From Nymphaea colorata (Eukaryota; Streptophyta; Magnoliopsida; Nymphaeales; Nymphaeaceae): a DNA stretch of 64,000 bases. The position numbers and the translations under genes are program-made. Shown one piece after another: positions 16,421 to 57,659 of this stretch. The first letter of the stretch is position 1. Each line of letters starts with the position of its first letter. The stretch lies in NCBI RefSeq assembly GCF_008831285.2, contig NC_045149.1:4331500-4395499 (forward strand). Reading direction: 5' to 3'. A model generated the notes under the pieces. That model worked only from the letters and a program-made list of their open reading frames with translations. It searched no databases and was not told the DNA's origin.

Positions 16421-16929
16421 TGGCAAAATGCATTAGAAAAACGTAATATTGACAGCTATGCTAGGAGTCGGTGATATGGTGTGCCATCTTTGTTTGATCA
16501 GCTGGTTGACAAAGATTTGGTATCTTGTTTGTTTTGCTTACCGGGCCGGCCTGATACAACCAATCATCATGTTTTCACATTTTTTTAAATTTAATTGTGA
16601 GCTTAGGAATTTCCGGTGTTGAATTGACCAAAACCTTATTGGAATTAAAGCCACCGTACAGGACACAAAATTCAGCTCTTGAAACATAATTAAGTACCAT
16701 AGTTTCGTATTGATAGTCTGCATAAAAACATGAGTTTTGGGTGATCCTCATTTTGTATACCTTAGTAGCATCGATTTACATGTTAAAAACCATGGATTTA
16801 AGGTAGGATGGATGGAGGTGATCAAATCTTAAAGCCATGGATATGAGATCAAGATGGATCTCAAACAAACACAACCTTCATATATTTTATACATTTAAAA
16901 ACTAAAAAGGCAAGGAAGAGGTAACCCAC

Positions 16930-17641
16930 CCTGACTGGAACGAGAAGGAGATGGAGAAACTACAAGAGGCTGAACTGTAGGAGGAGATATGGGGATGGAC
17001 GAGGGGGAATAGAATCGATAATTCTTGAAGTCGAGGAAGAAGCTAGGTGCGATAACTCACCCTCCTCTCTTCCCCTTCACATGTTTTCTTCAACATAGGT
17101 GATCAATTTGCTCAAGCAACTATAGTAATTCTCCATAGACAGGTCCCTTGTGCACTACATCATCGCGTATGTCTTAAAAAAAATCAGTGTACATGATCTC
17201 ACCGACGGCAAACAAACGCTTGGAATTGATTGTCGTGGCTGCATCAAAGAGGTTGTTCATGAGATGTCCCCATTGCTTGCTGTAAAGAGCAACATCCGAA
17301 GCGTTGTTCATGTTATACAATGCCATGAAGCCACTATTCACGGTTCTATAGAAATTCACATCAGAGTAGAGGATGAGGCATTTGTGGAGCCATTGGGTTG
17401 CCGATTTGCCACCAAGGCACACTTTGAAAACTTCGGAGAAGCCATGGCCATTGCATTTGGCGCAGAGTTCTGCCAACCTCTTGTCGTAGTAGAGGGTGAG
17501 GCCGTAGACTTGGTTGGGGCTGTTGCCGTTGGTGCTTATGTAGAAGCCATCTTTGGACGTGGGCTTGGACGGAAGGGAGAGCAATAGAGTTTCCAAGTAG
17601 AGTTCATAGATGATGTTGGAAGTGTTGTTCGAGGAGACGTT
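16930..17641 (-). pseudogene. Cysteine-rich receptor-like kinase (CRK), DUF26 ectodomain
   Basis: Continues the signal-peptide exon at 22195-22290 after the copia insertion. The minus strand encodes a Gnk2/DUF26 domain: SNVSSNNTSNIIYELYLETL, then GFYISTNGNSPNQVYGL, LAELCAKC, WLHKCLILYSD, NFYRTVNSG, NNASD and FAVGEIMYTDFF. A run of eight T's (plus 17176-17183) then shifts the frame, and a TAG follows (plus 17155-17157). The next frame resumes with a second DUF26 (CTRDLSMENYYSCLSKL) and a Pro/Ser-rich juxtamembrane tail, QPLVVSPSPSRSSQ, ending at a splice donor (GTGGGT, 16924-16929). The CX8CX2C motif has lost one Cys in each domain (to Tyr). DUF26 proteins are secreted or receptor ectodomains in plant immunity and stress signalling. 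No transmembrane or kinase exons are present downstream. Confidence 0.85.
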
Positions 17642-17646
17642 GGAGC
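17642..17646. repeat. Target-site duplication GGAGC (left)
   Basis: Directly left of the 5' LTR. The same five bases follow the 3' LTR at 22195-22199. Five bp is the usual size for copia integrase. Confidence 0.9.
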
Positions 17647-18050
17647 TGATAAGAGTAAATCAGCAGGAGATGTTAAAGATAAGAACGTCTCAGCAAGACG
17701 TGATTTTAGGAACGAGATTGCTGGAGACATTAAAGATGGTGATAGGAAAGATAAGAATGTTCTGAAAATTAAGGAAATTGCTGGAGACGTTAAGGATAGG
17801 GATATTAAAAAGAAGAACATTTCAGTAAGATGAGATTTTAGGAATGTGCTGGAAATTAAGAAAATCATTAAAGATGCTGATAACGCAAAAATTATTGAAA
17901 TCACTTAAAGAGAGATACGATAGTTTTTCCTTCATCCATTCCACAAATCGTGGATCTTATAAATATTTTCTGCAAATGTACTTGTAACAATTCATTGTAA
18001 AACTCAAGGGAGAAAATTAAACATTCTCCTTCATCTATCAATTTTTGTCA
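17647..18050 (+). mobile_element. 5' LTR of the copia element in CRK
   Basis: 404 bp, TGATAAGAG...TTTTTGTCA. Contains a TATA-like TATAAATA at 17958-17965, which would drive element RNA rightward, against CRK transcription. The LTR is rich in GGAGACGTTAAAGATAAGAA-type internal repeats. Confidence 0.9.
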
Positions 18051-18062
18051 TGGTATCAAAGC
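18051..18062 (+). promoter_or_regulatory. Primer-binding site
   Basis: TGGTATCAAAGC abuts the LTR end. It differs by one base from the initiator-Met tRNA complement TGGTATCAGAGC. Confidence 0.85.
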
Positions 18063-18073
18063 ACTACGATTCT

Positions 18074-19385
18074 ATGGCCTCACAAAGCTCGTAGACTGCC
18101 TCAATCAAATACTCATATCCTTTCAACCTAAACATTGCCAATTTCGTTTCCATCAAATTGACCCAGTCTAATTTTCTCTTATGGCAGACGTAGGTGCTAG
18201 GACTAATCGAAAGTAAGGATATGTCAAGTTTGTCAATGGAGAAACTCCCATGCCTGATAGATATCTGCCTAGCAATAGTCATAATGGAGGAAATATTACT
18301 ACAGCTGAACAAGCTTTGAATCCAGACTTCAATTCCTAGCAAAGATCAGATCGGTTGCTGTGTTGATGGATTACTGGAATCCTATCAGAATAAATATTGG
18401 GGCTAGTAGTCGGCCTGAAAACCTCCAAACAGGTATGGGATACTTTAATCGAAGATTTGCTTATGATTCACAGGAGCAAGAAATGTTCTTTATGCAAAGA
18501 CTTCAGATGAATCGGAAAGACAATTTAAGTATTGCTGAATACACCAAAAATTTCAAAATTATATGTGACGAACTTGCTGTCATTAGAAAACCAGTTTCAG
18601 GTCAATCTAAAGTGTTTTGGTTATTGACTGGTCTTGGACCAGAATACGAGTCTTCTAGAACGACTTATAAGCATCCTCCAACTCCACCATACTTGGAAGT
18701 CATTGCCTTGCTTGAAAGTCATGAGACGGTAAGTAATATGTATCGAGATATTTCAGGCACTCAGGTGGCTTTTATGAATCAACGTGTACAAAATCCAAGG
18801 TATATGGGACACAAAAATCAGACGTTCAATTCTAAGGGACAAGAGATTTGCCAAGCCAGCCAAGGTACCCCATTTAACAGCGACAAAAGAGAAAATCATA
18901 ATCAGTCTGATGCCTCCCAAAATGGAGTCGTGTGCCAAATTTGCAACAAAAAAAACCATTCTGCACTTAATTGCTGGCATCACTTTAATCAAACATTCCA
19001 GCCCAAACAAGTTCCTCAGGAACTAGCTGCAATAAAGATTGCAAATGGTCAGGATCAACAGTGGTTCTTGGATACTGGCACATCTGCCCAAATCACATCA
19101 GACGTAGGTAATCTTAATGTCTCAACTAAATATTATGGATTGGAAAAGATAATGGTAGGCAATGGTCAGAAACTTGACATCATGCATGTGGGAAATGCTA
19201 TTGTTAACGATGGACAAAATTTCATTCTTCTCAAGAATGTTTTGGTGGTTCTAGAAATTAAAAAGAATTTAATTTCAATCAGCCAACTAACAGCAGACAT
19301 ACCACATATTTTTGAATTCTCTGTTAATGGTTTTCTTGAAAGGACAAGGGGAATCGGCAGATTGTGGCATCCGAAAGAGACATGA
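18074..19385 (+). pseudogene. copia gag and protease
   Basis: The gag starts at ATG 18074 (MASQSS), but a stop at 18092 and frame changes break the first 280 bases. From 18360 a 341-codon frame holds the UBN2-type gag, a CCHC zinc knuckle (CQICNKKNHSALNC, about 18939-18980) and a retropepsin motif (WFLDTGTSAQIT, about 19063-19098) with the catalytic DTG intact. Gag forms the particle and protease would process the polyprotein. The frame ends at 19383-19385, within the linker before integrase. Confidence 0.85.
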
Positions 19386-20870
19386 TGAACTTTACATGCT
19401 GGAAAATGCAAGAGCAGCATCAAAAATTCAAGGAGATCACAAGGTCTTTTTCTGAGTCAGATTTTGTGGAGCAAATAAGGAAGTGTGGCATCATCATCTT
19501 GGTCACATCAACCAGCAGGTAGTAGAGTTTTTGGTCAATAAAAAGCCCATTAGAGTTCTTGGCCCATCTCGTAGCAGAATTTTATGTTCCAGTTGTCAAT
19601 TAGCTAAGTCATATCATCTTCCATATCTTTCTATTGAAGAACATTGTGATGAATTCCTTGGTTGTATGCACTGTAATCTTTGGGACCTTTCCCGATTATC
19701 AGATCTCAACAATATAAGTATTATGCCATTTTTGTTGATGAATCCACCCGTTTCATTTGATTTTATCCAATGCGCTTCAAGTAAGAATTTTGTGAGATTT
19801 TTAAAATTTTTCACAAGTTTGTAGAAAATCAATTTGGGAAAAGAATCAAAATTTTTCAAACCGATGAAGGTAGTGAATTTAATAGTAACATTCTTGCTTC
19901 ATATTTGCAAGAATATGGTATCCAACACTTAAAAGCATGTCCTAAAACTCCTCCTCAGAATGGAATGGTCGAATGCAGACATCGAACTATAGTTGAACTC
20001 GGACTTGCTATGATGTTTCACGCCAGTTTGCCAATGAAATTTTGGGTTGAAGCATTCTCTACAGTTGTGTGGTTAATCAATCGACTGCCCGCACCTACTC
20101 TTAAAATGAAAAGTCCATTTCAGCTTGTATTCACAAAGGATCCAGATTATGGTTGCATGAGAGTCTTTGGAAGCCGTTGTTTTCCCTATCTTCGAGATTA
20201 TGCCAAGAACAAGTTGAAGCCTAAATCTTTACCCTATGTTTTTATAGGGTATAACTCAACACATAATGGATATAAATGTTTATACCCACCAACGAGTCAG
20301 ATTTTTATATCCATAATTGTTGTTTCTGATGAAAATATATTTCCTTTCCAACAACCTAGGAATTTATTTACAACAATATCTCATTCTCAAGAAGGCGTCA
20401 CCTACAAGGAGTGGCTTGATGACAACCAGTCAGTTAAGGAAGTTTCTAAGTCTGGCCTTATCAATGAACTTGAAAATGGATCCATTAGAACTCGTTGTCA
20501 CAACGACAACCATGAATCGTCTTTAAGTAGCAATCTCCCATTTGCTATGGGCGCTAACACTTCTCATGTTACAGATGCTAGTGATTCTCAAGAGGTCATC
20601 GAGCCATCTCTCATAGATTTCATGCCTCATTCTCAATCTGATCCGCAGTTACCGACTCCTATCAATTCACTTTCCATGATCACAAAGGCAAAAGATGGCA
20701 TAGTCAAACCAAATCCAAAGTACTTTCTTGCTCTTTCAGTTCCTTTGGAGCCTAAAATAGTCAAAGAAGCATTCAAACATCCAGGATGGGTAAAACCCAT
20801 GGACGAAGAAATAGAAGCATTGAATTTGTGCAAAACATGGACTCTAATACCTGAACTGCAGATATGAATG
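19386..20870 (+). pseudogene. copia integrase, frameshifted
   Basis: The GAG-pre-integrase zinc finger (WHHHLGHINQQ ... CSSCQLAKSYHLP) is at 19483-19620. The first part of the core, about 19660-19880, is scrambled by frameshifts. From 19905 a 320-codon frame holds the end of the core (TPPQNGMVECRHRTIVELG) and the conserved C-terminal block with FGSRCFPYLRDYAKNKLKPK and FIGYNSTHNGYKCLYPP. It then enters the start of RT (HPGWVKPMDEEIEALNLCKT). No intact integrase can be made. Confidence 0.85.
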
Positions 20871-21712
20871 TCATCTCCAGAAAATGGGTTTTCAAGGACT
20901 CTTTCTCAATCAAAAGAGATATGCATACAGTCTCTTAGAACATGCTGACATCTAACAGCTTGTAAACCAGTTGTAACTCCTCTGGTTCAGAATTTTTGGC
21001 CACCTCTTGAAGATCCACCATTTACTAATCCTACACTCCATTGTAGCTTGGTAGGTGGGCTTCAATATCTCACGTTTACATGTCCTGACATCACATACAG
21101 TGTGAACTACGTCAGCCAATATATGCAGTAGCCTACTCAAAGTCAGTTCATGCTTGTTAAAAGAATATTTCGATATATTCATGGGACCATAGAACTCGGT
21201 TGTCTACTTTCACCTCAGTCAGTTTTTCGATTCCATGCTTACTCTAATTCAGATTGGTCTGGGTGTCAAGAGACACGATGATCAACAACTTGTTTTTGCA
21301 CATTCATTGGCACAAATGCTATTTCCTGGACAACTAAAAAACAACCAACGGTAGCTTGATCCACAACTGAAGCAGAATATAGATGGATGGCCTCTGCAAC
21401 AGTTGAGTTAACATGGCTTTCCTTCATACTCAAAGATATCGGCATCCATATAACGGATCCCCCGCAGCTATACTGTGACAATATGTCTGCCTTACAAGTT
21501 AGTATTAAATCAGTGTTTCACTCAAGAATGAAACATGTTGCCTCGATTATCATTTCTTACGAGAGAAGGTGGCGTTGGGGAACTTATTTACTCAATATGT
21601 TCCTTCCTTTCAGCAGGTTGCCAATATTTTTACAAAGCCTTATCTAGATCTGCCACCAAAAATCTCCGACGCAAACTGGGTGTCGTTCACCCACCACCCA
21701 GTTTGAGGGGGC
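20871..21712 (+). pseudogene. copia RT/RNase H remnant lacking the RT core
   Basis: The RT start (RKWVFKDSFSIKRD, about 20880-20920) is followed within about 40 bases by a segment normally beyond the catalytic YVDD region (ACKPVVTPLVQNF, from 20953). The whole catalytic RT core is missing. The downstream part, GGLQYLTFTCPDITYSVNYV, SDWSGC, TTEAEYRWMAS and LYCDNMSAL, is the copia RNase H region with several stops. The element must have depended on enzymes supplied by relatives if the deletion preceded insertion. Confidence 0.85.
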
Positions 21713-21713
21713 A

Positions 21714-22194
21714 TGATAAGAGTAAATCAGCAGGAGCTGTAAAATCAGCAGGAGACGTTAAAGATAAGAACGTCTCAGCAATCACGTTCCTTGATAAAAG
21801 TAAATCAGCTGGAGACGTTAAAGATAAGAACGTCTCAGCAAGACATGATTTTAGGAACGAGATTGCTGGTGACGTTAAAGATGGTGATAGCAAAGATAAG
21901 AACATGCTGGAAATTAAAGAAATTGCTGGTGATGTTAAGGATGGTGGTATTAAAAAGAAGAACGTTTTAGCAAGACGAGATTTTAAGAATGTGCTGGAAA
22001 TTAAGAAAATCATTGAAGATGTTGATAACGCTGAAATTATTGAAATCACTTATAGAGAGATACGGCAGTTTTTCCTTCATCCATTCCACAAGTCATGGAT
22101 CTTGTAAATATTTCTGTATATATACTTGTAACAACTCATTGTAAAACTCAAGTGAGAAAATTAAACATTCTCCTTCAGCTCTCAATTTTTATAA
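21714..22194 (+). mobile_element. 3' LTR of the copia element in CRK
   Basis: 481 bp against 404 bp in the 5' LTR. The extra 77 bp come from tandem duplication of the AGTAAATCAGC/GGAGACGTTAAAGATAAG module near the LTR start. The terminal bases are ATAA instead of GTCA. Confidence 0.88.
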
Positions 22195-22199
22195 GGAGC
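22195..22199. repeat. Target-site duplication GGAGC (right)
   Basis: Pairs with 17642-17646. It corresponds to the Cys-Ser codons at the end of the CRK signal-peptide exon. Confidence 0.9.
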
Positions 22200-22290
22200 A
22201 CCCAAGATTGAGATCATTAGCAATACTGTCAGCAATAATTAAAGCTCTGAGGAAGAAGAGAAGGAATATTTTGGGTTCCCATCTCATCAT
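22195..22290 (-). pseudogene. CRK signal-peptide exon part, separated by copia insertion
   Basis: ATG ATG AGA TGG at 22290 opens a 32-codon frame that begins MMRWEPKIFLLFFLRALIIA, a typical secretory signal peptide, and ends LNLGCS at the target-site duplication. Removing the copia element and one copy of GGAGC joins this frame directly and in phase to the DUF26 domain at 17641. It is therefore the true start of the CRK-like gene, now 4.5 kb away from the rest. Confidence 0.85.
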
Positions 22291-22483
22291 TTAGAAAAAT
22301 TATGAGAGACATATAAGTGGTGCAACTAATTGAGGCGAAGCTTGTCATATACGCCATCAATGCACACAAAAATTTCATGCACATCAGCTATCAGCCATGT
22401 GTCATGAAAAGATGACTAGGAGGCTGAGTCGATGCAAGACTGGTTTGATGGCGAATCGGCAGTGGACTCGATAGACAGTAAAA

Positions 22484-22696
22484 TCCATGGATCTGAGATC
22501 ACCCCGGATCTCAAACAAACACAACCTTCATATATTTTGTACATTTAAGAAATAAAAAGGCAAGGAAGAGGTACCCACTTTGACTGGAATGAGAAGGAGA
22601 TGGAGAAACTACAGGAGGCTGAGATGCAGTTGGAGATGTGTGGATGGGCGAGGGAGAATATAAAGATAATTCTCGAAGCCGAGGAAGTAGCTAGTC
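22484..22696 (-). pseudogene. Second CRK remnant: end of exon 1 and start of intron 1
   Basis: Closely matches 16835-17045: the same Pro/Ser-rich juxtamembrane tail (QPPVVSPSPSHSSQ), the same donor GTGGGT (22573-22578), and the same intron start with AACCTTCATATATTTT. The rest of this paralogue is absent. It lies about 200 bp upstream of the signal peptide of the other copy, in the same orientation, as expected for tandemly arrayed CRK genes after deletion or unequal crossing-over. Confidence 0.8.
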
Positions 22697-29820: not shown

Positions 29821-30260
29821 CAAACGATTTTTACATCATTTTTTGTGACCATTCATTATTTTTTGCCATTTTTTATTTTATACGAACAGGACAGCTGATA
29901 GACGCTTACAATTTATAAACACCAGGAAAATATTAAATAACCAGTTGCCCGGCAGAGTTCACTAAGTTGAACATGGCATACCTGGATCTGTCCCCTTGCT
30001 AAGACCTAAAGTTGTGGTCATTTCAGATCGTCGGTGTGGGGATTAATTTGTTACAGAAAAGGCAGGCTTTTCTGCAGCTTGTGTAGAAAACCAGAAAGCC
30101 GTACTATGAAATGAAAGGTCGAATAATAAAATTGTAACATTTTTTGCGGCGATCGATAAATTATGAAATGACAAGCGTACCCTGCAAACTCATACCGGCT
30201 ACCACACAAAAAAAAGAAAAAAAGGGGGAAGTGGAGGAAGGAGAGCAGGAAGATGCTGAC

Positions 30261-30884
30261 CTTACAGAGGGCCATGAAATCATGATCGGAGGTCCGATCC
30301 CCCAATCCAACATCCGGCGGATCCTTCTCGAACTCCCGGAGCACCGCCTGCCGCTTCAACTTGCCGACGAGGACTCCGTCGCCGGTGAGGAACCCCGTCA
30401 ACCTGCCCGCCCGCCCGACCTCGAGCTCTGTGCCTAGCACAGCGTGCGCGCCCAGGCAGTCTATCGCGAAGGGCTCCACCATGATCCGGGGGTTGGCCGT
30501 GACCACGACCCGCCTCTCCGAGCACGAGTCGAAGAGCTCCCACGCGTCCGACCGAACGTTCGCGGCGTAGAGCTCCGGCAGGATTGAGGCCGAGGCGGCG
30601 GTGACGTCGCCGAGGTGAAGGCCGGAAACGGAGACGAAGATGAGGAGGCGGATGGCGGCGGATTCGGAGACGAGCTTGTAGAGGGCGAAGATGAGCGGCG
30701 CGCAGAGGACGAGGAGGAGGGAGCGGAGGATGCCGCCGGCGGTATAGGAGAGCAGAAGAAAGTAGGGGAACGAAGAAGAGGACGCGAGAAGGGTACCGTC
30801 GAGATCGGCCGCGACAGTAGCCAAGGGACCGTGGCGCTGCGTGAATTCGGCAATCGGGGGGAACTTCCGGCCGTCGGACCCCAT
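30261..30884 (-). CDS. Exon 1 of the truncated GPAT gene
   Basis: This exon is uninterrupted and phase 0 at its 3' end, and it shows no visible decay, unlike the rest of the locus. The start ATG at 30882-30884 (MGSDGRKFPP) is chosen because the HAD motif falls at the family's usual distance from the N-terminus. A TTTAAAT box lies about 65 bp upstream on the minus strand (plus 30947-30953). Confidence 0.75.
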
Positions 30885-33800
30885 GGTCGTGGCTCTTGGG
30901 ACTTCGACAGGCAGTGAAGTGGGGAGGCTCGGAAATGGAACGCCATTTAAACCTCATTTGTTCCGAAGACGCCCTCGCCTTTTCTCATTATTTCACCAAC
31001 CTCGGGTTCGGCATCCGGATCTGGTGCATGAGCCTACTGGTGCTTCGATCGTATGATAACCAGGGTTCCCTAAGCTTTGGTGACTCTTTTGGGTCAACTC
31101 ATAAACTCAAGACATTGTCTTAAGCAGATGTTCGACATAGTTTAATTTGTTGGATGTATATTCTGAGTCGGTGAGTTTGAGACTGCATATTGAATTGAGA
31201 AGCAAACCTCATTGCACTTCAATTGATTCTAGACCCATTAAAAAAATGCCCCAGATCTAAACCTAGTCAATTAAAGCTGATTGGTGCTCAAGATCAACTG
31301 TTTGAATTGTTTCGCATTGTAGATTCTTGCAACACTAAGGTGGAGAAGACTCAAGGTGAAATTTATCTTGACTGTGGCAATGGTTGCATTCTACTTACCT
31401 GCATGCCCAGTGGGCAGACCAAGAAATTGATTACACTACGGTGGAATAAAAGAAAGCTACATCTATCAAATTAGAGACAATAGAATTATTATATCAATTA
31501 TATAAGTTTTAGGTCTGGAATTAATAAAAATGTGTTTATGTAAAATGGATGTATAGATTTCGTGAATATCATTGGTAGAGATCAAATTTTAGTTTATATA
31601 TGTGTGTAAGCAAAATTATGATTTTTCTCTACGGGTTTCGATGGATCAAACGTACAATTAGATTTGTCAAATTTGAGAGCCAAACGCATCCTTCTTGTGG
31701 ATTCTATCTCGAAAAGTGGAGCCAGTAGAAGTCTTCTTATCAAAACCAAATTTCTCTTCTAAAAGTTTTCAACAAAATCCAACCTGCACTCGGTTAACAC
31801 GTCTCCGAAACAATATTAGATATTAATACAACCTTATGTCCTTGTCATGAGCGTTTTCTCTCCCAAAGTTTTTTTCCTTTCTTAGAAGATTCTCCCAAAG
31901 TGTATGCCTCTCCTTGGAAAAGAAAGCATCTGACCCTTTCTTAGACCCAAAAGCAGAATGTTTTGTGGGATGCACGCTGTGGTCAATTCTTCCATAGCTT
32001 CTAATAGTCATGATAAATATGTAACATATGCCCGTGTGGAGAGAAAGGTATGATGCCTAACAAGTGGGGATGTCAGCTCATTTTGCTAAACAACATGGTA
32101 TATGTCTGGTTAATTTACTGATTGGCCGATTTAGGTGCAGTTGTGCATCCAAGTCGTCCACATCCAATGTGAGATTAACCCCACAAAAATCCAAATCTGG
32201 ATATATGCAAATCTCAGATCTTAGCTGGCCACACGGATCAGCCACAACTAAATCAGAACCAAGTCTACATCCTTAAGGTGTATGTGGTTCCTGTGTCGGC
32301 CTGGTAATTTATTTATAACATCATTGTATATATATAATCATAATTATTAATCATATTTATATATTATATCATATTTTTATGTTATATTATATTATATTGG
32401 TAGATATATTTTTTATTATAAGCAAACCAGGCTGGGCCGGGTTGTCCCGATACCCAGCCTACAATGGGGGTCACATTTGAAGCACGCAGAACGGGCATAT
32501 ATAGATTTTGCGACAAAAGGATACAGTAAAAGTTCCATGTAAAGTGTATAATTCAAGAGATTCGTGCATTGAAAGAAATATACTGATAAACAATTGAAGC
32601 TCCGAAAAGATTCCCATTAAGCAGGGATGTTTGATAGGTACAATTTGTACCCAAGATCTGATTTAAGAAGATTGTCAAATAACAAGTGAATATATATAAA
32701 AAGTAATTATATATTAAAAAGTTAACGTTTCACTGAAAGAGGAATTACATTTACAGCATCCCAGGGAAAAAATGGAGCTTCCCAGATAGTCTGCGAAAAT
32801 ACATCTTGTGAGAGAGATGTTGATCTGTTTTTTGCCTTAACGTTTTGAAAAGAATTGTTCAATGTGGTCCAAGCAAGACCTATCCTATGCCAACATCAGT
32901 GTATAACTTTGTCGATGTTTTCAGAAATATACAGTGAGTTGTAACTAATGAACCAGCCTAGTAATTAATGTGTTAATCAAGGAAGCGTTGCCCAAGGCGT
33001 CCAGAATCCCCCCTTTTCCATTGCATCCAGGGCGGAGCAAAAGGGGGGTTTTTTTTTTAATTTATATTTAAATGTTAGAAAATTGTACTTGTTTTATATA
33101 AAAATTTTGAAAACATATATTTCAGCCTCTATCAAAATTTAAAAACTTTAATTTACCCTCTCATCAAAATTTAGAAACTTTAATTCGACCCCCTTCTCTG
33201 ATTGATGATCCGATTTTCTATGGTGAATAATGCATGATATTTTTGATATATACGGTTGTAGACTGGCCGAATCCTTATTTGGGCCTCTTGTCACTTTTTG
33301 CTTTACGAAAGCGATATTTTTGACACGATCTCCGATTAGCTATCCCAGATTCAAGCCGTTCACCTCCACACCCGTTGCATCAACTGCTTATATAAGCTAC
33401 AAACTATTTAGAAAAAGAAAAATGCTTGATCACCGATGTGGTTAGTGTTTCTGAACGGAATTCAAACGGCAAAAGGAATTAACCAATGCCAGATTGGGAT
33501 CATTCATGAATTGGATCAAATTAAAATTTTAGTTTCTAAAATAAAAATCGAAGTACAAACAAAAAGAAAGGAAAAATCTCAAAACTAAAAAATCAACAGG
33601 ATATTTCATGTCACCAGCCGTTTACCTCTGCCGAGACTAGGGCCTGATCCAAAAATTTTTCCTAAGGGGAGCTAAATTAAAGTTTTTAAATTTTGACAAG
33701 TGCCGAATTATCATTTTTCAAATTTTTTATGTAGGACAAATAAAATTTTCTAAAATTTACGTGCAAATTAAAAAAAAAAAATTGAGGTGGGTCCAAAGCC

Positions 33801-55337: not shown

Positions 55338-55652
55338 TTAAGTGGCTTTTATTTGCCTCTTCATCAGCAGGAAACATGCTTCATATTCAACTTGAGAGAT
55401 TTGAGTTATTGCATCATCTATATTTTTAAATAGAAATTTATTCTCATCAAAAATGCAGTGCCTATATATACGCTCTGTTTTAACATGTAAGCACCTATAA
55501 CCCTTATGCATTGCACTATAGCCCAAGAAAATGGAGGGCAATGATCTTGGATTAAGTTTATGCTTGACATAATCTCTTAGGTATGGAAAGCATAAACATC
55601 CAAAAGTTCTCATATAACTGTAGTCAGACTTAGTTCTAAATAAATTTTCATA
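55338..55652 (-). pseudogene. copia integrase, C-terminal part
   Basis: MRTFGCLCFPYLRDYVKHKL and IFLGYSAMHKGYRCLHVKT, the conserved block after the catalytic core. It continues in frame from the part at 56763-57273 once the inserted element and one target repeat are disregarded. Confidence 0.85.
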
Positions 55653-55685
55653 TGGAGAGGCTATGTCACCAAGGTGCGGGGAGAG

Positions 55686-55686
<1 letters not shown>

Positions 55687-55750
<64 letters not shown>
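55687..55750. repeat. (ATT)n microsatellite
   Basis: About 21 ATT units just inside the left end of the TIR element. Confidence 0.97.
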
Positions 55751-56270
55751 TTATAAACAATAAAAAAATTGAAAACTTATAGAAAATATTTATGACAAAA
55801 ATATAAAAATACAACATTCTTATAAAATTTAAATTCAATTTAACTTCAAGTACCACCATTGGAAACTTGACCCCTCAGTTAACCTGATTTTACTATTTGG
55901 TTCTCAAATCTGATTTAAGAACAAGTGATCTGATTTAACAACAAGTTGAGTATCTAGTTAGTCCGAACCATTAAAATTAGTATTCGACACGATACAGTGG
56001 TAACAGCATGCAACCTGTTTTACTGGAAGACAGACCAATTAATGGACTTGTCCTTAAGAAATTCAATTACATTACGACAATTAGGTGGTTTTCTGAACAG
56101 CAATGTCATTTTTTTTACTATATATAACAAAGTAACAATAAGTTTGTTGATAAATATTTTAACCTAAAATGCTAATTTACTAGAAACTGAAAGATGTGTG
56201 GAAATAATTTACATAAAACAATGATGCCAAGAAATGAAAACGAAAACAAAAGAGGGCCCAACGAAAATAC

Positions 56271-56600
56271 CTGAAAGATTGGTTCGGCTGACCCATTGTC
56301 TTCCGGTTCGCAAGATCGCAAGTAAAAGGAAAGGGGAAAGCAGAGTTTGCCTCTCTTGCGCTCAGGGGTTTTGAGTTCCTTCACAATCTCAACATTGCTC
56401 ACCAGGCAGGCAGAGTTTTCAGGGAGAATGTGCTGGCTGAAATCGAAAGACACCGTCAATCCTCAATGCAGGCCAAATCCACCGCTCAATCCTCGCCGGA
56501 CCGGAGTTCTTTGATCGCCGGTCACCGGACGCAGCAGAGAGAGAGAGAAAGAGAGAGAGAGAGCAGCGTAGCAGCGAAAAGAAAACAGGAAGCGGCAGCT
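56271..56600 (-). pseudogene. Captured first-exon-like fragment inside the TIR element
   Basis: On the minus strand a CT-rich leader (56537-56565) is followed by ATG at 56457-56459. A 63-codon frame beginning MTVSFDFSQHILPENSACL, with later KTPERKRGKLCF, ends at a good splice donor (CAG/GTATTTTC at 56270). An alternative donor, GTGAGC, is at 56397-56402. The composition and leader-exon-intron arrangement look like the 5' end of a host gene. The protein was not recognised. Confidence 0.45.
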
Positions 56601-56762
56601 GCCGCTGGTGAAAGGGAGGATCGCAGGAGAGATAGTGAGGGAAAATACCCGACTCATGTTGGGTGCGAATCAAGGTCGCACCCGCGTCCGCATCCGGACC
56701 CGCATCGCGTCGACACGGGTGCAACTTCATTTTAGACGTACCGTGGTATCATAGTGGAGAGG

Positions 56763-57350
56763 TCATATTCAGCCCAGGTGAAGGAACTCTATTATGAACC
56801 CAAACTGCAGTATTGAATGCCTCAACCCAAAATCAGCGAGGCAAACGAGCATGAAACATCATAGCTAACCCAAGTTCTGTAACAACCCTGTGTTTTCTCT
56901 ATGCCTGTCCATTTTGTTGTGGCATGTATGAACAGGACATCATGTGTTGAATTTCATTTTCTTGAAAAATTGTCTTCATCCTGAAAGTATCAAATTCTGT
57001 TCCACCATATGAGTGAAACGTTTTGATCATTTTATTAAACTGATCCTTTACATACATAATGAACCTTTCAAAACAGTGCACAAATTCTAATTTCTCTTTT
57101 AAAGGGAAAAGCCAACTGAATTTGGTTGAGCCATCTACAAATACTGCATAATACCTCATGCCTTGAACTAAATTAACTGGCGACGGACCCCACAAATTAC
57201 AATGTAATATATCAAAAGGTTGTGATTCCCTATTATCAACAAAGAAGAAAGGTAGATGAGAAGATTTTGCCATAGCACAACCAGCACATATATTTCTTTC
57301 TGTAATATTTGAGCTACAAATCTGATTTTGTCTATTTAAGAACTTTAATA
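56763..57350 (-). pseudogene. copia integrase, zinc finger and core
   Basis: Minus-strand frame with MAKSSHLPFFF, the core start FDILHCNLWGPSPVNL, RYYAVFVDGSTKFSWLFPLK and SYMPQQNGQA. The reading frame has a stop after NGQA. It ends at the TGGAGAGG target repeat of the nested element. Confidence 0.82.
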
Positions 57351-57659
57351 CTCAATTAACATGAGCTAATCTTCTCTGTCATATTTCTAGACTAGCCACC
57401 TTTTGATGATTGGAGAAGCATGCCTCCTCTGTTTCTGCTGCAAAAACATAAAAATCACCCTGCCGTTAGCCTTCAACAATCACTCACCCTGATTCCCTGT
57501 TCTTGATTTGGAAGCGATCATGTGCAAAACAAAAATCGACTGGTAAATCCTTTGTCAACTAGCTTACTGAAATCAAATTCCTCTTAATTTTAGGAACAAC
57601 TAACACATTTCTCAACTATAGTTCATCATTCTTTTGAACTAATTTTAGCACTGCCAACA

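Follow-up and report, generated by a model that had tools for sequence, protein, structure and literature searches.

A Nonautonomous hAT Element of Nymphaea colorata with a Putatively Captured 5' End of a Kinase Gene

A nonautonomous hAT element of 1,094 bp (55661-56754), flanked on both sides by an exact 8-bp target-site duplication (TSD) and carrying what appears to be a captured, Pack-type piece of a host kinase gene, was found inside a copia retrotransposon in a 64,000-nt stretch of Nymphaea colorata DNA (C12:4331500-4395499, hereafter the window). With high probability it is a Pack-hAT element of the following history: the kinase piece was copied in an ancestor and spread, one copy landed in the old copia, and later captures followed in two descendants. 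The genome searches covered 407.8 Mb in 783 contigs.

Insertion Site, Element Ends and hAT Relatives

The features on which the reading is built, at their positions in the window, are these:

55338-55652, minus strand: host copia, SH3-like side of the insertion site (ORF 55338-55688 extends 28 bp into the element)
55653-55660, no strand: target-site duplication TGGAGAGG, left copy (exact 8-bp repeat scan)
55661-55678, plus strand: left terminal inverted repeat CTATGTCACCAAGGTGCG (family motif)
55689-55754, no strand: (TTA)22 microsatellite, where sister copies have a GC-rich left subterminal region
55728-55937, no strand: left arm, common at least in part to related copies (copy comparison)
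55938-56089, no strand: stretch present in the window copy and L088, absent from L089-type copies (copy comparison)
56090-56492, plus strand: putative captured host segment, i.e., upstream/5' region and first 22 codons of a protein kinase gene on C1 (346/403 identical)
56428-56514, plus strand: remnant ORF MCWLKSKDTVNPQCRPNPPLNPRRTGVL, closed by a stop, in which the parent's start (MCRPKSKDAVNPRWRPNPSLNPR) runs into element sequence (ORF reading)
56493-56658, no strand: GA/CT-rich stretch with no match to the C1 parent (alignment)
56659-56754, minus strand: right arm, ending in the right terminal inverted repeat at 56737-56754 (copy comparison)
56755-56762, no strand: target-site duplication TGGAGAGG, right copy (exact 8-bp repeat scan)
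56763-57351, minus strand: host copia, integrase core side of the insertion site (ORF 56899-57351)

The insertion of an inverted-repeat transposon into a copia integrase, with an exact 8-bp duplication, had been claimed by a sequence-only reading of this DNA and was recovered here: scanning for exact 8-bp repeats 100-4000 bp apart with inverted ends (two-letter 8-mers excluded), the TGGAGAGG pair was the sole match in the window. The imperfect 18-bp inverted ends described in that reading agree at 14 of 18 bases, in keeping with the short terminal inverted repeats of the hAT superfamily. An altered scan (first 5 bp identical, at least 14/18 in agreement) gave one match in the window vs. two across 100 dinucleotide shuffles, and a consensus scan admitting up to three mismatches retrieved from the window just the two ends of the element (0.13 matches expected).

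In the flanks, the integrase core PF00665 is recognised at E 1e-3, short of its cut-off, and a retroviral SH3-like domain at 3e-21. When about 300 bp of flank per side were joined through one copy of the TSD, a single copia integrase frame ran across the site, and the frame is thus restored on removal of the element, as had been proposed. Two other stops occur in the approximately 200 codons of the joined frame, thus indicating that the host copia was either dead before the insertion or has decayed since; with a decayed host, the single insertion is by itself of little consequence. The interior is unrelated to copia, again as the earlier reader had maintained, since it recurs elsewhere between the element's own ends.

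Other features of the window were recorded alongside the insertion. In the integrase part of a gypsy-like element, a 274-bp sequence is repeated head to tail with 100% identity (2324-2869), explicable by a duplication of very recent date or by an error in the assembly. A fragment matching Stress-antifung (DUF26; 17174-17659, minus strand, 2e-11) is located between two repeats (region 16831-22694). The partners of these repeats are found on the far side of a copia (18309-20867), giving the order a-b ... b'-a' with the orientation unchanged, an arrangement not explained by simple LTRs. An ORF on the minus strand (30051-30953) matches a RAM2-like glycerol-3-phosphate acyltransferase domain (PF23270, 2e-57) and is probably a host gene exon.

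Genome-wide, the end motif CWATGTCACCNNGGTGCG gave 1,025 matches at no more than one mismatch (512 forward and 513 reverse) vs. three (2 + 1) for the reversed control motif. Taken in pairs, these matches would amount to roughly 500 same-ended elements. The motif was also present in 79 stretches of viral contigs, and a search of published texts for the terminal strings of the element returned nothing relevant among the matches listed. Among 32 loci scanned, 19 showed an end pair with a duplication of at most two mismatches and the other 13 (including L095) showed none. Four same-ended elements measure 4.4-4.6 kb; the 8-bp TSD is perfect in two of them (L110 and L114) and has a single mismatch in the other two (L111 and L113). 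A Pfam scan of eight frame pieces from these elements identified hAT transposase pieces in three of the four, i.e., Dimer_Tnp_hAT (PF05699) in L113 (3.6e-14) and L111 (2e-9), and DUF659 in L113 (7.2e-17) and L114 (5.4e-29); the other four pieces scanned (two from L110, one from L111 and one from L113) had no Pfam match.

The last 96 bp of the window element are 81-84% identical to all four larger elements, and its bases 13-189 (55673-55849) are 67% identical to the left arm of the 4.4-kb L110. Since three of the four larger same-ended elements hold hAT transposase pieces and these elements align with the arms of the window element, the latter is placed in the hAT superfamily, which is also what the 8-bp duplication had suggested to the earlier reader. 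No transposase was found in the two frames of the window element that were scanned, one having no Pfam match and the other only a sub-threshold match to K_channel_TID (E 0.14). The transposase frames of the larger elements are broken by stops or shifts, and there is thus no working transposase partner among the frames found. An additional same-ended element, L117 (C2:9042599-9043560, 962 bp), has at least 89 match rows in the genome, many of them long, from the 40 of 795 candidates that were scored, and it probably represents a large ordinary nonautonomous hAT subfamily with a separate interior.

The termini of the window element, CTATG...CATAG, depart from the short consensus at the ends of hAT elements (CAGGG / YARNG type). 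This is a weak argument against membership, and it could be read in favour of a Mutator-like (Pack-MULE) element, or one of another superfamily, which happens to have 8-bp duplications; Pack elements are indeed best known from MULEs. Mutator-like and Pack-MULE elements, however, have a TSD of about 9 bp, and in 17 units the 8-bp duplications matched at 6-8 of 8 positions and the 9-bp ones at 1-5 of 9, with lengths of 6, 7, 10 and 11 bp not matching at the chosen boundaries either, a length comparison that is not an independent test because those boundaries came from 8-bp duplication scans. Moreover, the eight pieces scanned from the same-ended 4.4-4.6-kb elements gave hAT dimerisation and DUF659 domains or nothing, and an origin outside the hAT superfamily is thus extremely improbable.

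The Kinase-Derived Segment and Its Source

A genome search with the interior of the element (56110-56600) yielded 28 match rows (25 of 25 candidates scored). Sixteen of them were pieces of 31-55 bp in the GA-rich part, and the 12 long ones (at least 105 bp) comprised 11 located in units with the family ends and one outside any element, on C1, the kind of parent locus that the earlier note had proposed to look for. There, C1:22243544-22243941, at the start of the kinase locus (C1:22243544-22245127), matches window 56090-56492 at 86%, and the plus strand holds an intact ORF of 416 codons, counted from its first ATG, with PK_Tyr_Ser-Thr (1.5e-21) and Pkinase (2e-21) domains. We take the kinase clade of this gene to be LYK-related. 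About 15 kb from it on C1 there is a LysM-type receptor kinase, recognised by the LysM domains of the L121 ORF; the domain matches of the C1 parent itself include no LysM domain. The next relative of the C1 kinase in the genome is a paralogue on C4 whose start shows the same pattern, MCR..KD..P, and the kinase start thus belongs to the gene family.

This agreement with a host gene is what suggests that the element carries a captured gene piece, and it bears out the Pack-type capture claimed before. The earlier note had itself remarked that an interior shared by all copies and matched by no host gene would be ordinary element sequence. Indeed, the 11 close copies share the kinase-derived interior at least in part, but a host gene does match it, and the same-ended members L103, L105, L110, L111, L113, L114 and L117 have no match in the captured segment, so that this objection falls.

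Homology alone gives no direction, and with 11 copies in elements vs. one in a gene the transfer might be thought to have run the other way, the segment being ordinary hAT sequence and a hAT insertion having supplied the C1 kinase with its start codon and the region upstream of it. A loose end-like match does occur in each of the wider stretches of 10 kb and 9 kb on either side of the C1 gene (L108 and L109), but the 6.5 kb around the C1 match (L095) are free of the end motif at up to six mismatches. In addition, the matched segment includes 22 codons, with a start motif common to the C4 paralogue, and whole-element blastn against ten same-ended or family loci retrieved nothing within element positions 430-832 at E 1e-3. 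Finally, pieces of two further genes are present in two of the other copies, which points to acquisition as a habit of the element. A donation from element to gene is thus very unlikely, and capture from the kinase gene is the direction adopted here.

In the window copy the captured frame runs on the plus strand from the ATG at 56428 for 28 codons and then stops. The sequence-only reading had placed the fragment on the minus strand instead, as the promoter, CT-rich leader, 63-codon first exon and splice donor of a different host gene. The minus strand does contain a CT-rich run and a donor-like CAG/GTATTTTC site, up to which one frame stays open for 64 codons, but this frame has no ATG and no Pfam or PDB match. 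From the minus-strand ATG at 56657, 64 codons are read and a stop is reached before the donor-like site, at variance with the ATG, 63 codons and donor described earlier. The sole ATG open across that site (56296) lies 26 bases upstream of it, i.e., eight codons and two bases. Nor does the CT-rich leader hold as part of a captured gene, since 56493-56658 is outside the part common to the host locus; and that locus is a kinase on the opposite strand, read on the plus strand as an uninterrupted ORF from its start. Hardly any credence can thus be given to a minus-strand first exon, and the plus-strand kinase segment is retained. As for the GA/CT-rich stretch itself, it has matches in L115 (56591-56641, 88% over 51 bp), L112 (56591-56626, 83% over 36 bp) and L116 (56493-56582, 70% over 97 columns).

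Copies, Order of Events and Later Captures

The kinase piece is present, at least in part, in 11 element copies at nine independent sites, with exact 8-bp TSDs at seven of them (window, L089/L090, L091, L092, L093, L094 and L097) and imperfect ones at L096 (7/8) and L088 (6/8). Having its own exact TSD at so many of the independent sites, the element has been mobilised together with its cargo. L089 and L090 were counted as one site, being identical elements with identical flanks (590 bp to the left and 1,522 bp to the right up to the first difference); they are the same insertion at two places on C5 about 320 kb apart, i.e., a segmental duplication. In L093 (2681-4414) two capture-element units lie in tandem, the second without a left end, and the 8-mer CTTTGAAC stands before and between the units, with a one-mismatch copy after them.

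Measured over the captured segment, K2P distances to the parent are 0.144-0.185 for eight copies; from the window copy to the other seven they are 0.089-0.135. These ranges omit L096 and L097, whose later inserts spoil the alignment, and L090, which duplicates L089. In a midpoint-rooted tree of the eight copies and the parent, all the copies grouped together. The window copy was placed next to L088 (93/89), the six L089-type copies formed one group (99/98), and two of the six inner branches were starred. Both the distances and the grouping would fit one capture followed by spread. The copies do not form one simple family, since their right ends differ between subgroups: the right arm of the L089 group is 67-73% identical to that of the window copy. 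As the L089-type copies lack 55938-56089 in addition to having a different right arm, the ends of the element seem to have been exchanged too. No uncaptured ancestor was found among the loci examined, and the ancestral left junction of the capture is thus unreadable.

Two of the copies hold additional gene pieces. In L096, 419 bp match C3:28260620-28261042 (376/440 columns), the upstream part and first ~40 codons of a dynamin gene (PF00350, 1.7e-21), and this insert apparently sits inside the kinase-derived piece. In L097, 558 bp match C10:24649335-24649876 (510/562), corresponding to upstream sequence and ~58 codons of a region that in the parent resembles a first exon with a CAG/GT end and that has no Pfam match. 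Both copies retain the kinase start MCRPKSKDAVNPR. At both junctions of L097 five-base overlaps can be read (AACCC and GGTTT), to which no chance level is attached, and the junctions of L096 contain 17 and ~100 bases of untraced filler. The captures in L096 and L097 thus look like template switching during gap repair, a mechanism that we infer from the junctions of one copy.

The sequence of events would accordingly begin with an ancestor of the element that took up, between its two ends, a copy of about 400 bp of the host kinase gene, comprising 22 codons and the DNA preceding the start codon. This probably happened by template switching while a break within the element, or one that it had left behind, was being repaired. 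The chimeric element would then have been mobilised, presumably by transposases of its 4.4-kb relatives, to what are now nine independent sites, and one insertion would have hit the integrase region of the old copia. Later, in two descendants, the interior would have been partly replaced by 5' parts of other genes, probably through the same kind of event, and in the window copy the captured frame would now be a 28-codon dead end.

The three traced captures (kinase, dynamin and the C10 gene) all begin upstream of the inferred start codon, end within the first 22 to ~58 codons, and lie in the same orientation within the element. Three out of three is suggestive of a preference for 5' ends in one orientation; it is a small number, and L096 and L097 entered the sample through the shared kinase piece, the copies having been sampled on grounds other than 5' bias. 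For Pack-MULEs, a capture process that favours open 5' regions has been proposed. That this hAT lineage serially collects host gene 5' ends through such a bias, and may in this way spread promoters and start codons, is a possibility we put forward tentatively and regard as rather doubtful. If the 5' bias holds, the lineage would offer a testable case of transposons spreading promoters.

Possible Function and Comparison with Known Systems

A further proposal is that the copies act as mobile promoters, the captured upstream region driving neighbouring genes or short chimeric proteins and being kept for that purpose. In support, the start of the frame, with its ATG and eight or more codons, has hardly changed in the 11 copies, the chimeric ORFs reach 71 codons, and identity to the parent in eight comparable copies is 88-92% over the 22 codons vs. 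82-86% in the region upstream. Six flanking ORFs were hand-picked at five copies: one is a copia reverse transcriptase, and the other five, which flank four of the copies, have matches in gene families, namely pectinesterase (twice), RPE65-like, RING and AAA. Against it, the ORFs in the captured frame are of uneven length in the 11 copies (12-71 codons), the window copy sits in a decayed copia, and the 65 bp concerned are too short for a selection test. Retention for a promoter or coding function is thus unlikely.

hAT elements with captured gene pieces have already been described, and the repeated capture of 5' ends in one lineage is the notable part of the present case. Its order of events can be followed because the parent gene, the multiplied copies, the transposase-bearing relatives and the later captures all lie in one genome.

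Pack-hAT elements are described in maize and rice (PMC8903248) and share with the window element the hAT ends, the 8-bp TSD and a host gene fragment. In the passages of that study bearing on them, they come from other plants and other hAT families, found by their Ac and Bg termini, whereas the element reported here ends in CTATGTCACC..GGTGCG and a single captured piece has been multiplied in one lineage. Gene fragments are also carried by the maize Ds2 and Ds-l4 elements, for which capture is tentatively ascribed to break repair (PMC3260210). These are likewise hAT elements, Ds-l4 being about 1 kb long, with filler DNA sometimes traced to genes. The same source calls capture rare in hAT and lists, in the part cited, two Ds2 and nine Ds-l4 elements; here, by comparison, one captured piece occurs in 11 copies, with further captures in two of them. 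The Hatvine-6 elements of grapevine are hAT elements with shared ends and variable regions matching genic and non-genic host sequence (PMC2528002). They are said in that account to share transposase coding sequence, whereas the window element has no transposase match in the two frames scanned.

The nearest in anatomy, among the systems compared, is Pack-hAT-N8_XT of the western clawed frog, in which a 291-bp piece of a 5'UTR was captured by a hAT element now present on three chromosomes with distinct TSDs (PMC8277862). The animal survey in which it appears counts few multiplied captures and, in its discussion of Pack elements, considers template switching during gap repair (PMC8277862). As described there, the frog element holds material of one captured gene, whereas in the Nymphaea lineage the piece reaches into codons and was followed by two later captures from other genes.
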